A stretch of DNA of 47,560 nt from a virus: positions 1 to 47,560 of IMG/VR virus record IMGVR_UViG_3300042400_001382; one strand, 5' to 3'. Both the position numbers and the translations under genes were made by a program. Of this stretch, positions 3,175-27,724 are shown piece after piece. The notes below the pieces were generated by a model that saw nothing but the letters and a program-made list of their open reading frames with translations, had not been told where the DNA came from and searched no databases. Position 1 is the first letter of the stretch. Every line of letters begins with the position of its first letter.

Positions 3175-6100
3175 TTATTTATCCCAATTATTATATATAT
3201 TAGTTATATATGATAATAGTGCTACTTCTCTCCAGAACAGATTATTTAATATATGAGGTGTCCCGCTTTCTTGTTCTGTAGGGTTGTATTTTAACGACTT
3301 TAACAGATTTACATAAGTTTCTTGTTTTTTTATGTATGTTGCTAAAGTTTCTTTTGTGAATGTATACCCAACAAAATCTTCTCGATACGTATTACCGGAT
3401 AATGCTATATTAGTGGAAAAATTTACTTTTAACCAATCAAACCAATCTTGAAAACCTTTTGCATTTATTGGATCATTTTTTATTGATGGGAAAGAGAAAA
3501 CAAAATCATATAGAGCCTGTTTTCCTGCTGGATTTAACGACCCAATTACCCCAATCGCCCCATTATTTTTATCAATAGTTTGTCCTAGTAATGCAGCGGC
3601 TTCATAAGAGCATTCCCAAACATCACCCCATCCCCTATCTGTCGAAGTAGATGTAGAAATAATAGCGCCTGTGGTCGAATTAATTACGTCTGTTTTTGTT
3701 GTTACTGTTATCCACTCTCGTAACACCACACCATAATACCTAAAATCTGGAGCAGTGTGTTTTAACAACCAATTCGTTTTTGCTATTCCTCTTTGACCGT
3801 CGCTCCAAGAAGGATTACCAGGTTCATACAAAGGTCGATTATTATAAGTATCCTGTTCGAGAATTAGGGTTTGAAATACAACAGAATAATTATCTTGACT
3901 TACCATTTTAAATGGAGGAGCTCCTGCGCTTACAGCAAGCCCACTTTGTGTGTATTCTTTCCACTGCGTTTTTTCGTCTAGAGGTATTGAGTACTGTCCG
4001 ATTAGTGTCCCGTCAAGAGAATCTAGTTTTACATTAACACCTGCCCAACCGTCCGGTTTTGAGTCGCCGCCTACTATTCCATCTATAAAACAACTTAACG
4101 TTACATTGAAACTTCCTTCTTTTGATTGATTCGATATACCACTATTATCCCATCTAAATACTGGTTCTACTCGTACTGCACCAGAAGAAATAATTTTGGT
4201 TGATGTTTTGTCGATTGCGACACCAGGAATCCATGTATCTGGGCTTATTTTTCTTTTAGTCCATACTTCATATTCAACATTTGTTGTAAAAGTTTTTTGT
4301 GTGTATGTTGAAATATTAGTATTTATGTTTGTTAAACCTACTTTCGCGCTAGTAAATCCATTTGGGTCTAGAGCAGAAAAACCTGCAACCAAATTGATAT
4401 TGTACGCTACTGTTCCATCAACAACACTATCTGATTGCCCTGTTACTTGAACTACTTGTGTAATATTCCAATTAGAAGGAGTAAATGTCAAAGAACTACC
4501 TGATGTAATTACACCTTCTGCTGTATTATCAGAAGTAGCAGTGACTGTTATGTTAGTTAATGGTGCTCTACTTAATGAAACTTTTATTGTGACATTAGTT
4601 CCAGATTCTGATGTTTGAGTTCCTGATGTAGAAGTAATAATAGACCCCGCTGGTGGTGCGGCTTTAGCTAAATTTATTAAATCATAACTATATTTTAATT
4701 TATCGTATACAGAATCGATTGATGATGTATTTACTGATATTGTATAAGAATCATTACCATCTTTATATGAACTATCATCTTGACCAGTAACAATTGTTGT
4801 TTGTGGTACGTTCCAATTTGATGTAGTGAAAGTTAACATACTACCTGCTGTAATTTTACCCTCAGATAAATTTGAGCTACTGTAGGATACAACAACAGAA
4901 TCTGATGGAGCAGAATCTAATTTAGTCGTAAATGTTACTGAGTGCCCGCTTTCAGATGTTTGCGATCCAGATCGAGTAATTGTTAGCGTACCAGGAGATT
5001 TATATGGTACTGTTGTGTCAATATTAGCTATTGGTGCTGTATTTGATACTAGATAAAAATTTTTATCGTTAGATACATAACACAAAAAATCAACATTATA
5101 GTTAGCTGTCCCATCAACAACGGAATCTGGTTGACCAGTAACCACCACATTTTGTGGTGTATTCCAATTTAATGGAGTGAAGTCCATTATATGGAAACAT
5201 TTACCTTCAATTTCATTACTAGATTTAGCACTCATGAACACATTCGTAGTAGGAGCTTTACTTAAACTTACCTGTAATGTTACTGTGTTACCTGATTCTG
5301 ATGTTTGTCTATTACCATTTAAATATGAATAATATATGAATCCAGGAATAACTGGTGGGATAACTGTTGTGTCTCTATTTTCTATAGCGGCATTAGCTTG
5401 TAGGTTATTCCAATACCCATTAGCAGAACTAGATCTTAAATTAACGTTATAGAGTACTGTTCCATCAACAACAGAATCTGGTTGTCCTGTTATTTCTATT
5501 GATTTTGGTTCTTTCCAATTAGATGTAGTGAAATTTATTGTATTTCCACTAACAAACGTTAGCGCATTATTTGCTACTCTCGTAACCACCCCTTCAGTTT
5601 TATTTGTTGATATAGCATAAATAGCAACATTAGTGTTTGGTTGTGAACTTAATACAACATCAATAATAGCAGTTTTTCCGTCTTCAGTTGTGTATAGTGT
5701 TGATTCTGAACTAGGTTTAATCAAAATTTCTGGTAGAGCAGGAGGTATTGATGTGCCTATATGTGTAAAATTTGCTGTTGTTTGTATATTGTTCCAATAC
5801 GTATCTGTAGAAGTACTGGTTATTGTAAATGCAGCATTGGCGTTTCCGACACTAGAGTAATTAACAGCAACAGTAAAATACTGTAAATCGTCCAATGAAT
5901 CAATAACTACCTGATTTGATTTTATAAGAGAATTTTTATTTGTAGAACACTTATAAATCCCATCAACAGTACAAATAGATGTATTTGAAGAACTTACTGT
6001 AAATGTTATAGGTAAATATTCGTCAAATTTTTGTCCAGAAATAGAAACAGTAAATTGAGTAGATCCTGTTTCTTGTGCAGTAGGTATAGTGGACGCAGAA

Positions 6101-9100
6101 ATAGAAGCAGGTGTAGTGATTGCTCGTTTTTTATTTATAGGATTAAGTTGTGTGTAAGAAATACCTGGAGTTGTAGATGATGTATTCCAGAGTTTAGCAG
6201 GTTTAGTGCCGGCATAATTGAATCCTGTGTCATCAGAAGTACCGTAATATTCTAAATATGAAAACAGTTTATTCAAATAATTTGTTGGTCTATCGCCTAA
6301 ATCATAAGTTAATGTAAAGTATTGTTTTGTGTTATAATTCGTATCAGTAAATGTTAATGTTGCAGGTGATATTGAATATGTTGTATTTGAAGATTGATCT
6401 CCTGATGCGTTCGACGCAACAACAGTCACAGATGAATTCGGTTTTTTATTTAAAAAAACAGGTAATTGGATTGTTCCTGTTTTGAACACTGTGTAACCCA
6501 TTTCATAATTATTAACAATATAATCTTCTGATGCATCAACAACAATTTTTCCTTGTTGTGTAGGGATTATAGGAGCCCACCCGACAAATTTAATATAAGG
6601 CTCTCTTATAGAAGTAACCGTTTGTTGTGAGACAGTAGATCTTCCTGATGAATAGAATATAGCTTCAGCTTTAGAAATTGCTTGAGATGGATCATAATTT
6701 GGATTATCGCAAACTATAATGTGTAAATCCCCTGATGGAAATTTCAATAATTGGTCATTTGGAATCTCTAAAACTCCTGAGCATTCTCCATACTCGTCAC
6801 TATATAAATCTCCACCAAGAGGTTGGATTGTAGATACAAGTATTGCTCCATTAGAACCACTTCCGTTTAATGTGGTAGCTAAAGTGTTTGCAACTTGTGT
6901 ATAACCAGTACCATTTTTAGTGAATTCAATTCCAGATATAGTAGATCCAAGAAAATTTAATTCAACTGTTGCTGTAGATGTATTCGCTCCAATAAACGAA
7001 ACTGTGGTATTTCCAGAATAATAGCCTTCTCCAGGATCGGTGATACAGATTGAAGAAAGACTACCTTTAATATTTTTATTTGGCGTTATATATCCATTTA
7101 CTAATTTACCGTTAATATACACAAACATTTTAGTTAGAGGAGCTAAATTCGTAGCCTTAAACTGTATTGATTTTGATCTAGCAAATGGTATAATTGAATC
7201 TGATAATATTTTTGTTACGTCCGATTGTGTAACTAATGCAGAAGATATACTATACATAGCTCTGTCATTTTGAGTCACAACAGTTGTATTTGTATTATCA
7301 ATAGAATATAAATTCGGTGTTGATGAATAAAATTTATTCCATTCATCATAAACAAGACCAGGAGTGATAGTGGAAGTAGCTAATGCTTCCGTATCAGGAT
7401 TAATTATATTAATAATTGGTTTTGTTTGAGTGTCTACCCAAACATCAGATTGCGGGTTTAAAAATAATTTCCCAGAATATGAAATAACATCAAATGGATT
7501 ACAATTTATTGTCGATGTTGCTAAAATTTGAGATGTTAATTGAGTTTCAGTGTAATTAAAACTGATTATATCTGATTTGTTTAATAATGTTGACGGTAAA
7601 GTTTTCATATCAACATTACTATCATAATATTCTGTTCTGAAAGATGGTCTTAATGCTTGTTCGGTTAAATCTAAAGAACAATTTTTATAATTGTCTGCAA
7701 TTGACATCACACCATAACCAACAAATGGATCTACAACAAACCCATTTTTCATTCTGTTTCCGGCAACATTATCGTAAATATTTCTAGACATAACATCTTT
7801 TTCAACCATATTTAAAGATGTATAATATTCAACATTAGAGATACGCTGTTCTAATTTACCGATATCATCCATTGTGTATCTACGATGTTTTTTGTATTTA
7901 ACAGAAATATCTTTTAATGATGCTGTAAATGGAGAAATTTCTATTGTTGCAATTGTCATTGCATTAACAAGATCAGTTGGCGGTACTTGATTTGTGTATG
8001 CAGGAACCCCTTTTATCCACTGAAATGATTTATTATCGGTTAATACTAATTTATCAATTCTTCCAAGATAATATGAAAAATTGTAATGCATATCAGAAAA
8101 AATTGTAGATGGAATTTCGTAATTATCAAAAATTAAAGATGTTGAATTATTCGTTCTACGTGGTCTGAAATCTATATAATTTTTTAAATCGTAATTAATA
8201 CTATTTAATTGTACAGATGGGATATTTGTGTATGGTATTCCACTGTAAGAATTAAATGTTAAATATTCTCCTGTAGAATGAGTATAATAATCGAATAACA
8301 CAAATACCAATTTTTCATCTAAATTAGTTTTAGCAGTTATTGTTCCATGATCGTAAATTGATTGAGTTTGACCGTTATTAAAATTATAATTAGATGTTAC
8401 TGTTTCCAATACACTCCAATTTGAAGTTGTTATTGAAGGTCTAACGTTTATATTGGAATCTATATTAGAACAATATAAACGCCCACCAGAAAAAACAACA
8501 TTATGTTGATTATATGTTATACTAGAATTCCACTCACCTATATAAGATGCATCTTTATGCGGAGAATAATACACTCCTGTGAAGTTTGCGATATCAGCAA
8601 ACCCTAAAGAAGTAGGAGTTGTTTTTGCGAAAACTCCTACGACTTGATTTTTATTAGCTAATTTAATTTTTTGAGTTGTCGATGTAACATCGACAGCATA
8701 TTTTATTGAGATAGATCCAGTATAACCGCTGTTAAATGTTATCGAAGCAATATATTCTGCTCCTGATTGGGTTACAACAATGGATACGTTATCTAAATCA
8801 ACATACTCCCCTATTGAATATACTCCAGAAGACGCTGTAGTAACAATAACAAAATTAGATTTTTTTACATCAGAAGATAAAGTTCCTATGCCACTTGAAA
8901 AATGTTTACCTGAACCTGAATGTAGTATATAATTATTTGAAGTTACAGTTGCTGTGGAAAATTTATCTATAGATAATGTAACATCAGATAATGACGCAAC
9001 GTTTTTATATGGTAATTCAAATAAAAGAGAATTAAATGATGAATCAACTATTGACAATTTCCCGTTTTCTTGAATTGTATCTGCTGCGAATGTAAAAGAA

Positions 9101-10677
9101 GAATAATCAGATGATGTTGGAATAACAACAGACTGTACAGTGGATAATTGAGTTTCAGTTGCAGAAATATTATACAGATACAAATAATATTCTGTGTCGG
9201 AAATATATTTTATATTTCTAACATAAGCATACGCAATAAATGTACTTTTATTTGCAGAGTTTTTTGTTGTGCTGTGTAATTCAACTCTTGCTGAAGATTG
9301 CGGATTTAATAAAATTCCTGTAGGTTTTCCGATTGAAATGTGATTTCCGTAATAGATTGATGTATAATAATTATCGATATTATTTGTGTCTCTACCTTTA
9401 TCAATATCAAAAAATTTTGGATACGATTGTTCGAATTCGTGTCCAAAAACATAAGCTTTTCCTGATGATAATTCAGCTTTTAATTTTGATTCGTTATCTG
9501 TAAAAGCAGAATTGTGAAAAGATAAAGAAAAATCTTTTACTATAAAGTTTCCTGCATGATCGTACATTTGTTTAGCTAAAACTTTTTCTAATTCGCCTAA
9601 TGTCGGTTGAGTATTATCTTTTATAATAATACCATTTTTAATTCTTATTAATTCGATAAATTTAGTTGATGTTAAATTTTTAATTTCTCCATCAACTAAA
9701 GGTTTTGATACTAAATTTAAATAAATTTTATATCTATCTGCTCCTGGAGCAGAATAATTATAAGAATTTTGAGCTGGATCTAACAGCGAAGAGTCATCAA
9801 TAAAATCTACAATTGCCTCAGTAACTTCATAACCAACAACGCAAGTAGGGTATTGTGTTTTAGTATTAGGGATAACAGTTAATGGTAGCGCTTTTACAAA
9901 ATGATTATTTGTAAAATATACCCCCTCATCAAAACCTATTTCCATAATATTTCTGGACGCAGTTTTTTTGACTATTGTTTGTACATTGCTATATGTTTCG
10001 TCGAGAGGTTTATTTACTCTAAATACAGAATTTTTAACCAATTCTGTGACAACATAATTATCATATGGATTATTTGAATCAGGAAAAGTTAACACGTCGC
10101 CAAGTTCAATAGCAACAGAATTTATAGTGAATTCGTAAGAATTCACTATACCATACACTCCTGATATAGAAAATGATGTGTCAACATCCAAATTACATGT
10201 ATACTCAGATTGGATTTCTGATGTTGATGGAGAACTAGAATACATTAAAGCATTAATCTTACTAGAGAATATAGACAATTCTTCTCCAGAAATAAAATTT
10301 TTTGTTGTATTATTTAATAATTTTACTGTAATGTAATTATTGACAATATCTATTGATGTAATTAACCCAAAACATGAAGAAGAAACACCAACAATATATT
10401 TACTTTTAAATTCTTGAATATCTGTAGATAAATTTGAAGTTACAGCTAATTTAAGATATTTAACATTAGTGTCAATAAAATATCTTCCACCAGTTACTTT
10501 TGATCCATCAGATAAAACAAATTTACCAAATTTACCAATTTGATCTTGTAATATTGATTGTAGTTGCGTTAATTCTCTAGCCTGAACAGACACACCTGGT
10601 TTAAATAAAATTTTATGAAAATTTTTATTATCGTTAAAATCGTCATAGTATGGTTGGGTGTTAAAATTTAAAGCCAT
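3175..10677 (-). CDS. Giant baseplate/fibre protein with DUF4815-like N-terminus and Calx-beta-like repeats
   Basis: This is the largest gene of the window (2500 residues). The N-terminus (QPYYDDFNDNKNFHKILFKP, then GVSVQARELTQLQSILQDQ) matches the pattern of DUF4815-type virion proteins of T4-like phages. Near residues 1200-1290 there is a glycine-rich GEGYYSGNTTVSF ... GTGYTQ module like those in the neighbouring baseplate proteins. From about residue 1650 to 2100 there are at least four repeats of roughly 100-120 residues of the form TSESG..V...LS.AP...V.V...S.N.(A/S)EG......LTFT..NWN..Q.V.VTG..DS...DG...Y, which resemble Calx-beta or Ig-like adhesion domains. The last 400 residues are distinct and Trp-rich. 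It lies downstream of gp8, where T4 has gp9/gp10, so it is likely a host-contacting baseplate or fibre protein. Confidence 0.75.
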   Translation of the reverse strand: MALNFNTQPYYDDFNDNKNFHKILFKPGVSVQARELTQLQSILQDQIGKFGKFVLSDGSKVTGGRYFIDTNVKYLKLAVTSNLSTDIQEFKSKYIVGVSSSCFGLITSIDIVNNYITVKLLNNTTKNFISGEELSIFSSKINALMYSSSPSTSEIQSEYTCNLDVDTSFSISGVYGIVNSYEFTINSVAIELGDVLTFPDSNNPYDNYVVTELVKNSVFRVNKPLDETYSNVQTIVKKTASRNIMEIGFDEGVYFTNNHFVKALPLTVIPNTKTQYPTCVVGYEVTEAIVDFIDDSSLLDPAQNSYNYSAPGADRYKIYLNLVSKPLVDGEIKNLTSTKFIELIRIKNGIIIKDNTQPTLGELEKVLAKQMYDHAGNFIVKDFSLSFHNSAFTDNESKLKAELSSGKAYVFGHEFEQSYPKFFDIDKGRDTNNIDNYYTSIYYGNHISIGKPTGILLNPQSSARVELHSTTKNSANKSTFIAYAYVRNIKYISDTEYYLYLYNISATETQLSTVQSVVIPTSSDYSSFTFAADTIQENGKLSIVDSSFNSLLFELPYKNVASLSDVTLSIDKFSTATVTSNNYILHSGSGKHFSSGIGTLSSDVKKSNFVIVTTASSGVYSIGEYVDLDNVSIVVTQSGAEYIASITFNSGYTGSISIKYAVDVTSTTQKIKLANKNQVVGVFAKTTPTSLGFADIANFTGVYYSPHKDASYIGEWNSSITYNQHNVVFSGGRLYCSNIDSNINVRPSITTSNWSVLETVTSNYNFNNGQTQSIYDHGTITAKTNLDEKLVFVLFDYYTHSTGEYLTFNSYSGIPYTNIPSVQLNSINYDLKNYIDFRPRRTNNSTSLIFDNYEIPSTIFSDMHYNFSYYLGRIDKLVLTDNKSFQWIKGVPAYTNQVPPTDLVNAMTIATIEISPFTASLKDISVKYKKHRRYTMDDIGKLEQRISNVEYYTSLNMVEKDVMSRNIYDNVAGNRMKNGFVVDPFVGYGVMSIADNYKNCSLDLTEQALRPSFRTEYYDSNVDMKTLPSTLLNKSDIISFNYTETQLTSQILATSTINCNPFDVISYSGKLFLNPQSDVWVDTQTKPIINIINPDTEALATSTITPGLVYDEWNKFYSSTPNLYSIDNTNTTVVTQNDRAMYSISSALVTQSDVTKILSDSIIPFARSKSIQFKATNLAPLTKMFVYINGKLVNGYITPNKNIKGSLSSICITDPGEGYYSGNTTVSFIGANTSTATVELNFLGSTISGIEFTKNGTGYTQVANTLATTLNGSGSNGAILVSTIQPLGGDLYSDEYGECSGVLEIPNDQLLKFPSGDLHIIVCDNPNYDPSQAISKAEAIFYSSGRSTVSQQTVTSIREPYIKFVGWAPIIPTQQGKIVVDASEDYIVNNYEMGYTVFKTGTIQLPVFLNKKPNSSVTVVASNASGDQSSNTTYSISPATLTFTDTNYNTKQYFTLTYDLGDRPTNYLNKLFSYLEYYGTSDDTGFNYAGTKPAKLWNTSSTTPGISYTQLNPINKKRAITTPASISASTIPTAQETGSTQFTVSISGQKFDEYLPITFTVSSSNTSICTVDGIYKCSTNKNSLIKSNQVVIDSLDDLQYFTVAVNYSSVGNANAAFTITSTSTDTYWNNIQTTANFTHIGTSIPPALPEILIKPSSESTLYTTEDGKTAIIDVVLSSQPNTNVAIYAISTNKTEGVVTRVANNALTFVSGNTINFTTSNWKEPKSIEITGQPDSVVDGTVLYNVNLRSSSANGYWNNLQANAAIENRDTTVIPPVIPGFIYYSYLNGNRQTSESGNTVTLQVSLSKAPTTNVFMSAKSSNEIEGKCFHIMDFTPLNWNTPQNVVVTGQPDSVVDGTANYNVDFLCYVSNDKNFYLVSNTAPIANIDTTVPYKSPGTLTITRSGSQTSESGHSVTFTTKLDSAPSDSVVVSYSSSNLSEGKITAGSMLTFTTSNWNVPQTTIVTGQDDSSYKDGNDSYTISVNTSSIDSVYDKLKYSYDLINLAKAAPPAGSIITSTSGTQTSESGTNVTIKVSLSRAPLTNITVTATSDNTAEGVITSGSSLTFTPSNWNITQVVQVTGQSDSVVDGTVAYNINLVAGFSALDPNGFTSAKVGLTNINTNISTYTQKTFTTNVEYEVWTKRKISPDTWIPGVAIDKTSTKIISSGAVRVEPVFRWDNSGISNQSKEGSFNVTLSCFIDGIVGGDSKPDGWAGVNVKLDSLDGTLIGQYSIPLDEKTQWKEYTQSGLAVSAGAPPFKMVSQDNYSVVFQTLILEQDTYNNRPLYEPGNPSWSDGQRGIAKTNWLLKHTAPDFRYYGVVLREWITVTTKTDVINSTTGAIISTSTSTDRGWGDVWECSYEAAALLGQTIDKNNGAIGVIGSLNPAGKQALYDFVFSFPSIKNDPINAKGFQDWFDWLKVNFSTNIALSGNTYREDFVGYTFTKETLATYIKKQETYVNLLKSLKYNPTEQESGTPHILNNLFWREVALLSYITNIYNNWDK

Positions 10678-23120: not shown

Positions 23121-23843
23121 ATGTCTTTACTACCAAAAATAGATTTACCAACATACACAATTACTTTACCTGTTTCTAAACAACAAGTAAAAATAAAACC
23201 ATATACAGTAAAAGAACAAAAATTGCTATTGATGGCAACAGAATCAGGAGATAAAAATTTTCTCGTTGATACTATTTTACAAATTGTGAATAATTGTATA
23301 GTAAATCCAATTGATGCCAAAGAGTTACCGATTACTGATGTTGAATATGTATTTTATCAATTAAGAGCTAGATCGCAATCTGAAATAGTAAATTTAAGAT
23401 ACAAATGCGAAAATAAAATTGATAATAATATTTGCGGAAATATTATGACTCACGATTTAAATTTATTAACTGATTTAGAAATATCTGAATCATTATCGCC
23501 TACAATTGAATTAGATCACAAAATTGGAATAAAATTAAAACACCAAAAATTTGAAAAAGACAAATTAGAAGAAAAAACTGTTCCAAAACCAGAAGAATTA
23601 TTTGAGTTGATTGCCAATAATATAGAATTTATTTATGATGAAAAATCTTCTTATAGCCCAAAAGATGTTCCTATCCAAAATGTCATAGAATTTTTGGGCG
23701 AATTGAACACTAAGCAATACGAAAAAATAGAACAATTTTTTTTAAACGAACCAAAAATTTACAAAAATTTACAAATAACATGTAAAAAATGCGGAACAGT
23801 TCATAATATTACAGTAGAGGATATTTTTGATTTTTTTATTTAA
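23121..23843 (+). CDS. 26: gp26-like tail/baseplate assembly chaperone (zero-frame product)
   Basis: This 240-residue protein matches the T4 gp26 family (208 residues in T4). It has an N-terminal MSLLPKIDLPTYTITLPVSK segment, IKPYTVKEQKLLLMA, EYVFYQLRARSQSEIVNLRY, a long helical C-terminal half, and four cysteines in two pairs (C-x-n-C at RYKCENK ... NICGN and TCKKCGT) that may bind zinc. In T4 gp26 takes part in hub assembly. By analogy with lambda gpG it probably chaperones the tape-measure protein encoded next. The reading frame ends just after a run of seven T, where a -1 shift would extend the protein (see 23831-24025). Confidence 0.88.
   Translation: MSLLPKIDLPTYTITLPVSKQQVKIKPYTVKEQKLLLMATESGDKNFLVDTILQIVNNCIVNPIDAKELPITDVEYVFYQLRARSQSEIVNLRYKCENKIDNNICGNIMTHDLNLLTDLEISESLSPTIELDHKIGIKLKHQKFEKDKLEEKTVPKPEELFELIANNIEFIYDEKSSYSPKDVPIQNVIEFLGELNTKQYEKIEQFFLNEPKIYKNLQITCKKCGTVHNITVEDIFDFFI
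23831..23837 (+). promoter_or_regulatory. Candidate slippery heptamer for -1 frameshifting
   Basis: The sequence T TTT TTT occurs as the last full codons before ATT TAA of the gp26 frame. In the -1 frame a TGA ends exactly at 23830, and the downstream frame is then open for 65 codons. The two stops (23828-23830 and 23841-23843) bracket a 10-base gap that holds the heptamer, so slippage would have to occur here. Confidence 0.75.
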
Positions 23844-24025
23844 TTCTTGGTGATGCTACTCTTGCAAGTTATTATAAAACCAATTTTGCGTTAATGCAAT
23901 ATCACAATTATAGTTTGCGAGAACTTGACGAAATGATCCCATGGGAAAGGGATATTTACATTGGATTATTATTACAATATTTAAAAGAAAAAGAAGATAG
24001 ACAAAAACAACAAAGGAATAGATAA
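23831..24025 (+). CDS. gp51/GT-like extension, probably made only by frameshift
   Basis: The -1 frame runs from the T-run to a TAA at 24023-24025 and encodes 64 residues including LGDATLASYYKTNFALMQYH, then SLRELDEMIPWERDIYIGLL and a charged tail (KEKEDRQKQQRNR). The MIPWERDIYIGLL motif is like the T part of G-T tail chaperones and the small gp51-type hub assembly proteins. There is no ATG, GTG or TTG with a ribosome site at the beginning. The first ATG (codon 22) would remove a third of the domain. A -1 shift would give a fusion of about 301 residues. The gene ends three bases before the tape-measure ATG, as in lambda G-T-H. Confidence 0.8.
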   Translation, partial: FFYLILGDATLASYYKTNFALMQYHNYSLRELDEMIPWERDIYIGLLLQYLKEKEDRQKQQRNR

Positions 24026-24028
24026 ACA

Positions 24029-27000
24029 ATGGCTAATAACGAAGAAACTGCTGCATTATTTTCTCCTAAACCAACATTTGATGTAGGGACAGAACAACAA
24101 TTTATTAAAGATTACAGTAGAGATAAATTAAAACAATCTTTTGACAAATTAAATTCAAAAAATGGTTCAACAGTTTCTTCTGACACAACAAACAATACTC
24201 AGTCTGTTGCAGGGAAATCAAGACCGATTATTTCAAATACAGAATCGAAATTCGGGTCTATATTTGACTCAATCAATAATGCTAGAGAATCAACAAAACA
24301 AAAATTCAATCAAAATAAAACTATTAACACTTTAACAGAATCTCCATTCGTTAAAACTGTGTCTGAAGGTATAAATACGGCAAAACAAACAGTTAAAACT
24401 GTACCTTCAATGTTTAAATCAAATTATGAGAAATTAACCGAAACATTGCCGATAGAAAAAACTCAACAAATTTTTAAACCGCAAATTAATAATAGATCAA
24501 CTCAACAAACGCAATATTCAAATAGATTACCAACAAAAAAAGAAATTGGTATATTTTCAAATGAATTGAAAACAAAAATTAATGCAAATGTTATTTCTCC
24601 GGTAAAACAAAAAACTAGCGTTAAATTTAACCAAATTAAATCCACATTATCACCAAAACAAAATAATAAACAAACAGCAGCAAATACTGTAGGTAAAACA
24701 TTTAAAGGTAATATTGCTAAAGGAATTTCAAAAATTGAGAGCGCTTGGGACAGAGTTGGTCCAGTTGCTTCTTTTGCAAATGATCTTGGTCGTGCAGCAT
24801 TTTCCCCTAATTTAATGTCAGCGTATAATATTTTATCAGGAAAAAAATTACCCCAAACTGGTGCGTCAGGATCCCATATAAAAGATGTTGATGATTCCAG
24901 TACAGGATTATCTAGCGGGTCATCAATGCAACAAAATATTTCCGGTGGAAATATGGGAACTATTCTTGGTGGTGGAAGTATAGGAGGAGAAGATTCGCAA
25001 CCAACAACAGTTAGTGGATCCGATAAAAATGCAGTATCAGTTTTGAATAAAATTTACCAAATACTGTCAATGACACATAATAAAATTAATAAAATAGGAG
25101 AAGATACAGCATTTATAGCAAAAAATGCTAAAATAAATCAAGCACAAGATAGTTCTGATTACGCAAATAGATTAGCAAGACTCAACGAAATCGGAGAAAA
25201 TTATAGAGCATCACAAACAGCTAATGCTCCTCATCATGAGCACCATGAACACGAAGAAGATAAAGAAGAACCAACGTCATACGATATTGATTTATCGAGA
25301 AAAAATAAAACTAATTCAAAACAACAAAAAAGAACCAACTCAACAAAAGGTAGAAAAGGAGTTAGAAATAAAGTAAGTAAACCAACAAAATCCGGTAAGA
25401 GCAAAGTATCTATACCAAAATCTACATTAGAACAAGTTACAAAAAATGCTGGAAAATTATCTGTAGCAGAAAAAGGTTCTGGAATATTATCTGATTTAGG
25501 AAAATTTGCTAAAGGTACTACCGAAGTTGTTGGAGATGTATACGCTAAGTCTAAACCTTTAGTTGGTAAGGCAATAGAAGGGTTAGGTGGTAAATCCATG
25601 TCAACATTAGGTAAACTTGGATCGGCTGCAGGTATTGTTACCGGAGGATTTGATGCATATGATAATATAAAAGAAGGAAATTATGGACAAGCAGCTTTAG
25701 ATGTTGGGGGAGCTGCTTTATCATACGTTAATCCAGCAGCTGGATTAATTATGGCAGGCGGAAGCGTAGTTGGAGAAGGAATGGATTGGATGAACAAAAA
25801 AGCTCATTCAGCAATTTTCGGAGATAAACCGGAAAAAAATTCTTTTGAAGAACATCAACAAGAATACCAACCGAGAAAATCTGATGAACAAGCCAAAAAA
25901 ACTCAAATTGGAGCAGTTTCTACTCAACAACCATTAAATAATGAAAACCAACAAAAGGCATTAGAATCCGAAACTGAACAATTATACAAAAAAAATCTTA
26001 GTAATTATCCTGAATCGATTCAACAAGATAAAGCATTTCAGGTTAGTTTAAGAAACGAAGCAAGAGAAGAGGTAGAATTAAATTCGAAAGCAAAAGTCCA
26101 AGAATACCAACCGAGAAAATCTGATGAACAAGCCAAAAAAACTCAAATTGGAGCAGTTTCTACTCAACAACCATTAAATAATGAAAACCAACAAAAGGCA
26201 TTAGAATCCGAAACTGAACAATTATACAAAAAAAATCTTAGTAATTATCCTGAATCGATTCAACAAGATAAAGCATTTCAGGTTAGTTTAAGAAACGAAG
26301 CAAGAGAAGAGGTAGAATTAAATTCGAAAGCAAAAGTCCAAGAAATTCCAACAGCAACACCTATTGCTAGTACCCAAAATATAGACGAACAACAAAAGGT
26401 GACAGCAACTCCAGCAATAACTCCAATGTTAGAAGGCGCTGTTCATGCTGATGATGAACTCCAAGACCCTAATGTAACACCAATGTTAGAAGGCGCTGTT
26501 CATGCTGATGAATATGACACGACAAAATCAGAATCAAAAAATTATGAAACAGTTACAATTGACACTCTTGATGTTAAAGAATTAAAAATTGAAACTTTAT
26601 ATTCACCACAAGGAACGGGTGTATTCGGTGGAGGAGAAACCGGAGCTTCTGGTGGCGGGTTTTTTGGTAAAGTTAAAAAAGCATTAGGTTTCGGTGGAGA
26701 AGAAGTAGAAGGAACCTCTCCAGGAGGAACTGGAGCTCCATCTGCAACTAAAGCTAGTAAAGGTGATGGCAAAGAATTTGCAATGCCTGCAGATAAAGTT
26801 TTTGGTATCGCAGGAAAATTTGAAAGTGGTAATGATGCAGGAAAAATTTCAAGCGGAGTAGGAGATGCTGGCGGAAAAAGTTACGGTCAATTCCAATTAT
26901 CATCAAAAACAGGAGACGTCAATAAATTCCTAAAAGGTTCTGGATACGAAGAGCAATTTAAAGGATTAGAAATCGGATCAAAAGAATTTGATGCTAAATG

Positions 27001-27724
27001 GCAAAATTTAGCAAAAAATGATGAAAAATTTTCTCAAGCTCAAAAAGAACATGCTAAGAAAACGCATTTCGACCCTCAAATGACAAAATTACAAGAAGCT
27101 GGTGTGCATTTAGAAAGTAGAGGAGATACAGTAAAAGCTGCCGTTTTCAGTACAGCAAATCAATATGGTGCAAATACCAGTACCATAACCAAAGCATTAT
27201 CTGGAAAAGACACATCAAAAATGTCTGATGAAGAAATTGTAAATACTATTCAAGATTATAAACAAGCAAATGTTAAATCTAATTTCAAGAGTAGTAACGA
27301 AAACGTACAAGCAGGTGTGTCAAAACGTATTGAACAAGAAAGAAAATTATTAAATCAACAATTAGCTGAAGAGAAGAAAGCAAAAGAATTAACTCCTGAG
27401 CAAAAAACAACCATAGAATTAGCAAAATCTGAACAACAAGCTGTTTCTATGTCACCTGAACAAAAACAAACTGCATCATTAGTCCAAGAACAAAAATCTC
27501 AAGAACCGTTGTTAAGTGCTGCATTGAAAGCTTCAGTATCAGTAGGAGAAAAACCTGAACCTAAACCAATCCAAACATCTCTGGCTCAGCAACAAGTTTC
27601 TGCACCAGCTCCTCAAACAAGGCAAAAATCTGCAGAAACTGGATTCGGTAATAAACTTATGAAAGTACGAAATGATGATCCTTTAATACTAACATTGCAA
27701 TACGGAAATGTAAGAACTGTATAA
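24029..27724 (+). CDS. Tape-measure-like hub protein with muralytic domain
   Basis: This 1231-residue protein follows the chaperone genes, the position of a tape-measure protein (T4 gp29 is 590). The N-terminal 250 residues are Lys/Gln/Asn-rich. Around residues 480-600 lies a Gly/Ala-rich hydrophobic stretch (AAGIVTGGFDAYDNIKEGNY ... AAGLIMAGGSVVGEG) that could interact with membrane. Residues 612-771 contain an exact 80-residue duplication. A short TPMLEGAVHAD repeat follows (26423-26454 and 26480-26511). Residues about 920-1060 resemble a lysozyme or transglycosylase-like domain: FESGND (Glu932 candidate catalytic), then GDAGGKSYGQFQLSS and a Trp-containing helix. Long Gln/Glu-rich helices finish the protein. 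The function is inferred from order and domains. Confidence 0.75.
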   Translation: MANNEETAALFSPKPTFDVGTEQQFIKDYSRDKLKQSFDKLNSKNGSTVSSDTTNNTQSVAGKSRPIISNTESKFGSIFDSINNARESTKQKFNQNKTINTLTESPFVKTVSEGINTAKQTVKTVPSMFKSNYEKLTETLPIEKTQQIFKPQINNRSTQQTQYSNRLPTKKEIGIFSNELKTKINANVISPVKQKTSVKFNQIKSTLSPKQNNKQTAANTVGKTFKGNIAKGISKIESAWDRVGPVASFANDLGRAAFSPNLMSAYNILSGKKLPQTGASGSHIKDVDDSSTGLSSGSSMQQNISGGNMGTILGGGSIGGEDSQPTTVSGSDKNAVSVLNKIYQILSMTHNKINKIGEDTAFIAKNAKINQAQDSSDYANRLARLNEIGENYRASQTANAPHHEHHEHEEDKEEPTSYDIDLSRKNKTNSKQQKRTNSTKGRKGVRNKVSKPTKSGKSKVSIPKSTLEQVTKNAGKLSVAEKGSGILSDLGKFAKGTTEVVGDVYAKSKPLVGKAIEGLGGKSMSTLGKLGSAAGIVTGGFDAYDNIKEGNYGQAALDVGGAALSYVNPAAGLIMAGGSVVGEGMDWMNKKAHSAIFGDKPEKNSFEEHQQEYQPRKSDEQAKKTQIGAVSTQQPLNNENQQKALESETEQLYKKNLSNYPESIQQDKAFQVSLRNEAREEVELNSKAKVQEYQPRKSDEQAKKTQIGAVSTQQPLNNENQQKALESETEQLYKKNLSNYPESIQQDKAFQVSLRNEAREEVELNSKAKVQEIPTATPIASTQNIDEQQKVTATPAITPMLEGAVHADDELQDPNVTPMLEGAVHADEYDTTKSESKNYETVTIDTLDVKELKIETLYSPQGTGVFGGGETGASGGGFFGKVKKALGFGGEEVEGTSPGGTGAPSATKASKGDGKEFAMPADKVFGIAGKFESGNDAGKISSGVGDAGGKSYGQFQLSSKTGDVNKFLKGSGYEEQFKGLEIGSKEFDAKWQNLAKNDEKFSQAQKEHAKKTHFDPQMTKLQEAGVHLESRGDTVKAAVFSTANQYGANTSTITKALSGKDTSKMSDEEIVNTIQDYKQANVKSNFKSSNENVQAGVSKRIEQERKLLNQQLAEEKKAKELTPEQKTTIELAKSEQQAVSMSPEQKQTASLVQEQKSQEPLLSAALKASVSVGEKPEPKPIQTSLAQQQVSAPAPQTRQKSAETGFGNKLMKVRNDDPLILTLQYGNVRTV
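25861..26340 (+). repeat. Perfect 240-bp tandem duplication inside the tape-measure-like gene
   Basis: Bases 25861-26100 and 26101-26340 are identical over all 240 positions as printed. Each copy encodes 80 residues starting EYQPRKSDEQAKKTQIGAVS. The frame is kept. The absence of even silent differences implies a very recent duplication or an assembly artefact. Confidence 0.97.

Follow-up and report, generated by a model that had tools for sequence, protein, structure and literature searches.

The tail assembly chaperones of phages lambda (gpG/gpGT) and HK97 were reportedly described by Xu, Hendrix and Duda in 2004. In these systems a short form is extended by a −1 frameshift ahead of the tape measure gene. 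In E. coli dnaX, the slippery heptamer is accompanied by an internal Shine-Dalgarno-like stimulator located about 10 nt upstream. Concerning T4-like phages, Vladimirov, Gautam and Davidson (Virology 2022, 566:9-15) are said to have identified the genes of the gp26/gp51 family as tail assembly chaperones (TAC-N / TAC-NC); frameshifting is reportedly conserved in several T4-like groups, and T4 is said to use its genes 26 and 51. This work appears in the reference list of PMC9603447, according to a passage of PMC10274946 frameshifting is replaced in some T4-like phages by one short and one long, fused gene, and poly-T slippery sites within the TAC-N genes of this phage group are cited in a passage of PMC12846349. 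A frameshifted chaperone pair is already known for T4-like phages, and the locus presented here is a new example of it. Since the general result was published in 2022, the gain lies in annotation, in breadth (an invariance over 49 clusters) and in an upstream element.

We analysed a stretch of 47,560 nucleotides of a viral record (IMGVR_UViG_3300042400_001382), hereafter the window. On the plus strand, positions 23121-23843 encode a 240-aa homologue of T4 gp26 according to profile searches (PF12322, E = 2e-47; phrog_150, E = 1e-53), which these matches and an AlphaFold2 model identify as the short form of a tail assembly chaperone (TAC-N / G-like). The gene ends with GAT TTT TTT ATT TAA. Reading the sequence directly, we found, exactly to the base as the initial annotation had it, seven Ts at 23831-23837 in the phase T TTT TTT; both stops are also where it had placed them, the zero-frame TAA at 23841-23843 and a −1 frame TGA at 23828-23830. 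After this TGA the −1 frame reads TTT TTT TAT TTA ATT ..., opening exactly at the T7 run. It was said to be open for 65 codons, whereas it holds 64 sense codons (23831-24025, including the final TAA at 24023-24025). This extension (TAC-C / T-like) matches phrog_634, the T4 gp51 "baseplate hub assembly catalyst" (positions 56-117 of 121, E = 1e-27), as well as the C-terminus of phrog_150; together with its homologues in relatives, this agrees with the conserved gp51/T-like domain that had been proposed. The extension was also rightly described as devoid of a start signal: the earliest ATG of the −1 frame in the window is at 23894 (codon 22, 21 codons past the run), no ATG, GTG or TTG precedes it, and the likeness to relatives starts at the run, ahead of this ATG.

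The body (PF12322 / phrog_150) and the C-terminal domain (phrog_634) of the T4 gp26/gp51 family are thus both present. The locus shares this family with TAC-N/TAC-NC of Vladimirov et al. 2022, for which passages of later citing works mention poly-T sites, but it belongs to an uncultivated AT-rich relative and is not annotated so. T7 runs are common in the window (50, vs about 107 on average in shuffles) and their rarity was dropped as an argument. The case for a frameshift therefore rests on comparison with relatives.

Homologues of the extension were found in 663 phage records, from cyanophages, Vibrio, Rhizobium, Sinorhizobium and Caulobacter phages and T4 types. We assembled 143 distinct 120-nt junctions from annotated phages and from IMG/VR loci obtained by three scans, one of which was keyed on a peptide motif well away from the slippery run and did not presuppose it. 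An in-phase run of at least six Ts is present in 142 of the 143 junctions, and the remaining one is a natural in-frame fusion, L061. Only four heptamers occur among the 142: T TTT TTC (79), T TTT TTT (46), T TTT TTA (14) and T TTT TTG (3). Synechococcus phage S-ShM2, a cultured relative, has T TTT TTC. In 134 of the 143 junctions the zero-frame stop follows the run at +7 or +10, and in 140 the gp26 frame is open for at least 100 codons upstream of the run. When the junctions were clustered such that extensions are less than 75% identical to one another (n = 49), TTT TTT was kept in 49/49 clusters; elsewhere, TTT and TTC are used for Phe in a ratio of 63:23 in the extension and 310:153 in gp26. 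Given the codon use of each locus, the log10 p of finding TTT TTT in all clusters is about −20, a value that ignores descent, by which the 49 clusters are related here as well as in the upstream-element statistics below. In a further, fourth set of 78 loci, 77 have T TTT TTC and the exception is again L061/L201. Residues F1 and F2, coded by the run itself, are invariant throughout the extension family. These comparisons indicate that the conservation of the T run in phase exceeds chance.

Comparing related T4-like loci had been suggested as a check, and both run and frame relation turn out to be conserved. Two observations in relatives had been named as counter-evidence, a start belonging to the small gene and the lack of a run. 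An ATG overlapping the gp26 stop does exist in some of them (KVP40-type, Cr30 and Rhizobium phages), yet all of these retain the in-phase slippery run; among the 143 junctions L061 alone is without it, and is itself an in-frame fusion.

We also considered the stretch that precedes any start in the extension. Substitutions were counted from the gp26 stop to the 20-codon point. In the 66 junctions without ATG or GTG in the first 20 extension codons, third-position substitutions in the extension frame amount to 4761, vs 2374 and 1734 at the other positions; in the 41 of them that also lack TTG they amount to 1742, vs 972 and 753, all of these being pairwise counts that are not independent. Such a bias indicates that the pre-start stretch is under selection as coding sequence in the extension frame and, with no usual start codon ahead, it suggests that ribosomes come in from gp26.

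Relatives have a purine stretch, most often GGAGGG, in positions −15 to −10 relative to the run. At least 4 nt match the Shine-Dalgarno consensus in 43/49 clusters, vs 24% of control stretches. Pairing with the 16S 3' end at the element averages −6.1 kcal/mol, vs −4.8 kcal/mol in synonymous shuffles (p = 4e-5, 49 clusters), and at control positions −1.7 vs −1.7 kcal/mol (p = 0.48). In addition, Glu at the element position is encoded by GAG in 18/30 cases, vs 27% elsewhere (p = 1e-4). By these measures, the Shine-Dalgarno-like element is stronger than the protein sequence requires, and it sits at a dnaX-like distance from the run, unlike the spacing seen ahead of a start codon. In the window it corresponds to AGAGGA at 23816-23821 (plus strand), in the same register as the GGAGGG of relatives, shorter than this common form and pairing with −5.8 kcal/mol; 10 nt separate its GAGG from the slippery run. 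Judging from register and anti-Shine-Dalgarno pairing, AGAGGA is a probable stimulator of the frameshift. The window resembles the dnaX cassette in having such an element about 10 nt ahead of its heptamer, but has no downstream stem-loop, and the function of dnaX is unrelated. We see roughly even chances that a dnaX-like internal Shine-Dalgarno at a fixed spacing, with the end of GGAGG some 10 nt ahead of T TTT TTY, belongs to the cassette by selection and sets the ratio of short to long chaperone in T4-like phages, whether their hosts are cyanobacteria, proteobacteria or uncultivated. We found no published description of the upstream element, the 2022 paper on T4-like chaperones being covered through the works that cite it.

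A stimulatory stem-loop was considered as a general feature and rejected. Downstream of the run the mean z is only −1.2 in relatives, and no stable stem-loop follows the run in the window (z = 0.2); such a structure is therefore not general. Stable predicted RNA folds do occur 12-72 nt past the run in L086 (z = −6.4), L119 (−5.7), L104 (−4.7) and L109 (−4.3), and they may be lineage-specific stimulators.

In T4, both the short form and the full fusion of the window have homologues, which are encoded by two separate genes on opposite strands, without a frameshift, whereas the long form of the window needs a change of frame. T4 gp51 (249 aa) comes from one uninterrupted ORF. Its residues 1-201 cover PF12322 in full (E = 4e-52) and are followed by the extension, an order collinear with that of the predicted gp26-extension fusion. 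T4 gp26 (208 aa) is a short paralogue of gp51. The T4-type gp26 and gp51 groups are sisters in the tree (support 0.85), beside the KVP40-type frameshift gene (0.89), and tree and gene order suggest that T4 acquired its separate genes 26 and 51 when, within its lineage, a duplication took the place of the frameshift. A T4-type gp51 match was obtained in 1339 phage records. Among the ORFs scanned in the partial contig of the window we found one gp26-type gene only, and not the T4 two-gene arrangement.

L061 (IMGVR_UViG_3300049043_000112, 1470-1540) contains an in-frame gp26-gp51 fusion, with a 2-nt deletion in the run relative to its closest relative, and a single copy of PF12322 was found in its 236 kb. 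This fusion may be real or a contig error; a fused form with a single PF12322 copy suggests either that a separate short form is perhaps not always needed or, again, such an error. The old zero-frame stop of L061 persists in another frame, so that a shift there would now yield the short form.

AlphaFold2 models were obtained for the L061 natural fusion and for gp26 of the window (pLDDT 92 in both cases). In a VIA second look against the PDB, the fusion model gave 3fgx (RBSTP2171, Z = 8.1), 2ob9 (the HK97 tail assembly chaperone, gp13; Z = 7.7) and 3klu (YqbN, Z = 7.5), the next match being at 4.7. The same three chains are on top for the window gp26 model (Z = 6.7, 6.5 and 5.9), followed by matches at 4.5 and then 2.6. 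The chaperone match covers about residues 1-96, with 84-86 residues aligned. All three proteins are named phage tail assembly chaperones in PMC9603447. Z values of 5.9-8.1 speak of fold similarity and are not functional proof, and a common arrangement could by itself account for Z values of 6-8; that three known chaperones come first with both predicted models is hard to ascribe to chance, though the values are moderate. With Foldseek alone, no PDB chain matched at E < 0.001, the chaperone match coming only from the VIA second look, and a profile search of PDB sequences returned nothing useful.

Conservation of the site, coding bias ahead of any start, collinearity with T4 gp51 and a chaperone fold together support the programmed −1 frameshift that had been proposed to join gp26 to the gp51/T-like extension, and we therefore regard the locus as the G/GT (TAC-N/TAC-NC) pair of T4-like phages. 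Based on frame relation, conservation, coding selection, homology and predicted fold, it is very probable that a −1 programmed frameshift at T TTT TTT yields a short and a long tail chaperone from one gene, as in lambda. Most ribosomes would end at the TAA at 23841 and produce the 240-aa short form (TAC-N, T4 gp26-like). In a minority, the P- and A-site tRNA-Phe would re-pair one base back at T TTT TTT (23831-23837), presumably by simultaneous slippage and with the help of the upstream Shine-Dalgarno-like element. After the slip, 62 further codons would be read, giving the long form (TAC-NC, T4 gp51-like), a fusion of about 302 aa with the predicted junction peptide EDIFDFFYLILGD. By analogy with lambda G/GT, both forms would coat the tape measure protein, recruit tail tube subunits and leave the finished tail. 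That ribosomes slip here, how efficiently they do so, the ratio of the two products and their binding to the tape measure are what we infer. The predicted fold of gp26 matches that of the HK97 chaperone, but gp26 has an additional C-terminal region that makes it longer, its site is T6 and not the G GGA AAG of lambda, and we found no sequence similarity between gp26 and the lambda/HK97 chaperones.

The extension could instead be a separate small gene, with its own or coupled initiation past the gp26 stop and no fusion. Annotators usually call it so, and an ATG overlaps the gp26 stop in KVP40-type, Caulobacter Cr30 and Rhizobium phages. However, these phages also keep the in-phase T6, the Shine-Dalgarno-like element aims at the run and not at a start, extension-frame selection precedes any start in the 41 junctions without ATG, GTG or TTG in the first 20 codons, and T4 gp51 carries both parts in one protein; we consider this reading highly unlikely. 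Homopolymers can also cause transcriptional slippage, and with its T7 the window could owe the fusion to RNA polymerase slipping on the T run rather than to the ribosome. However, the run of most relatives is six Ts long and no more, with C, A or G at the last heptamer position, and six Ts are short for such slippage; moreover the X XXY YYZ phase does not vary and a selected Shine-Dalgarno-like element is present at about the dnaX spacing, which leaves slippage of the polymerase very unlikely. As homopolymers are error-prone and L061 has one ORF, the change of frame might finally result from faulty sequencing or assembly of the T run in what is truly a single ORF, but the same frame relation recurs in all but one of the 143 distinct junctions, among them isolates from many sequencing groups, and the probability of such an error is negligible.

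A ribosomal frameshift would also bear on annotation. In the relevant passage of Sullivan et al. 2010 (PMC3037559), cyanophage gp51 is without its first ~200 residues, no cause being given there; these missing residues would be gp26, joined by the frameshift. None of the gp26-type phage records examined has a joined CDS annotated: they show two hub genes, or only the first. The initial annotation, which was not aware of the system being commonly annotated for T4-type gp26, was right about these records, but the system itself is known for T4-like phages. In NC_015290, NC_015281, KU686210, KJ019054 and others, the extension CDS begins at varied downstream codons or is unannotated.

Downstream, positions 24029-27724 (plus strand) encode a 1231-aa protein whose only domain match is lysozyme-like (PF21277, E = 1e-57; aa 927-1105). 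It is the sole tape-measure candidate among the tail genes scanned in the window. The L061 protein at this place has weak matches to tape-measure PHROGs (E = 1e-4), and in Cr30 a tape measure is annotated two genes on. From position and weak similarity in relatives, a tape-measure role is plausible. Of the gene order likened to lambda G-GT-H, chaperone and extension are borne out, and the tape measure is plausible from this position and similarity. The lysozyme-like domain (26807-27343) of this probable tape measure protein corresponds to a T6SS VgrG3-like C-terminal domain; genes of the endolysin family are present here in P-SSM7 and absent in L061. The same gene contains a near-perfect tandem duplication (25859-26352; period 240 bp, 2.1 copies, 99% match), which repeats 80 residues in frame. 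On the minus strand of the window, a 2500-aa ORF at 3175-10677 contains DUF4815 (PF16075, E = 5e-57) and is perhaps a very large baseplate or fibre protein.
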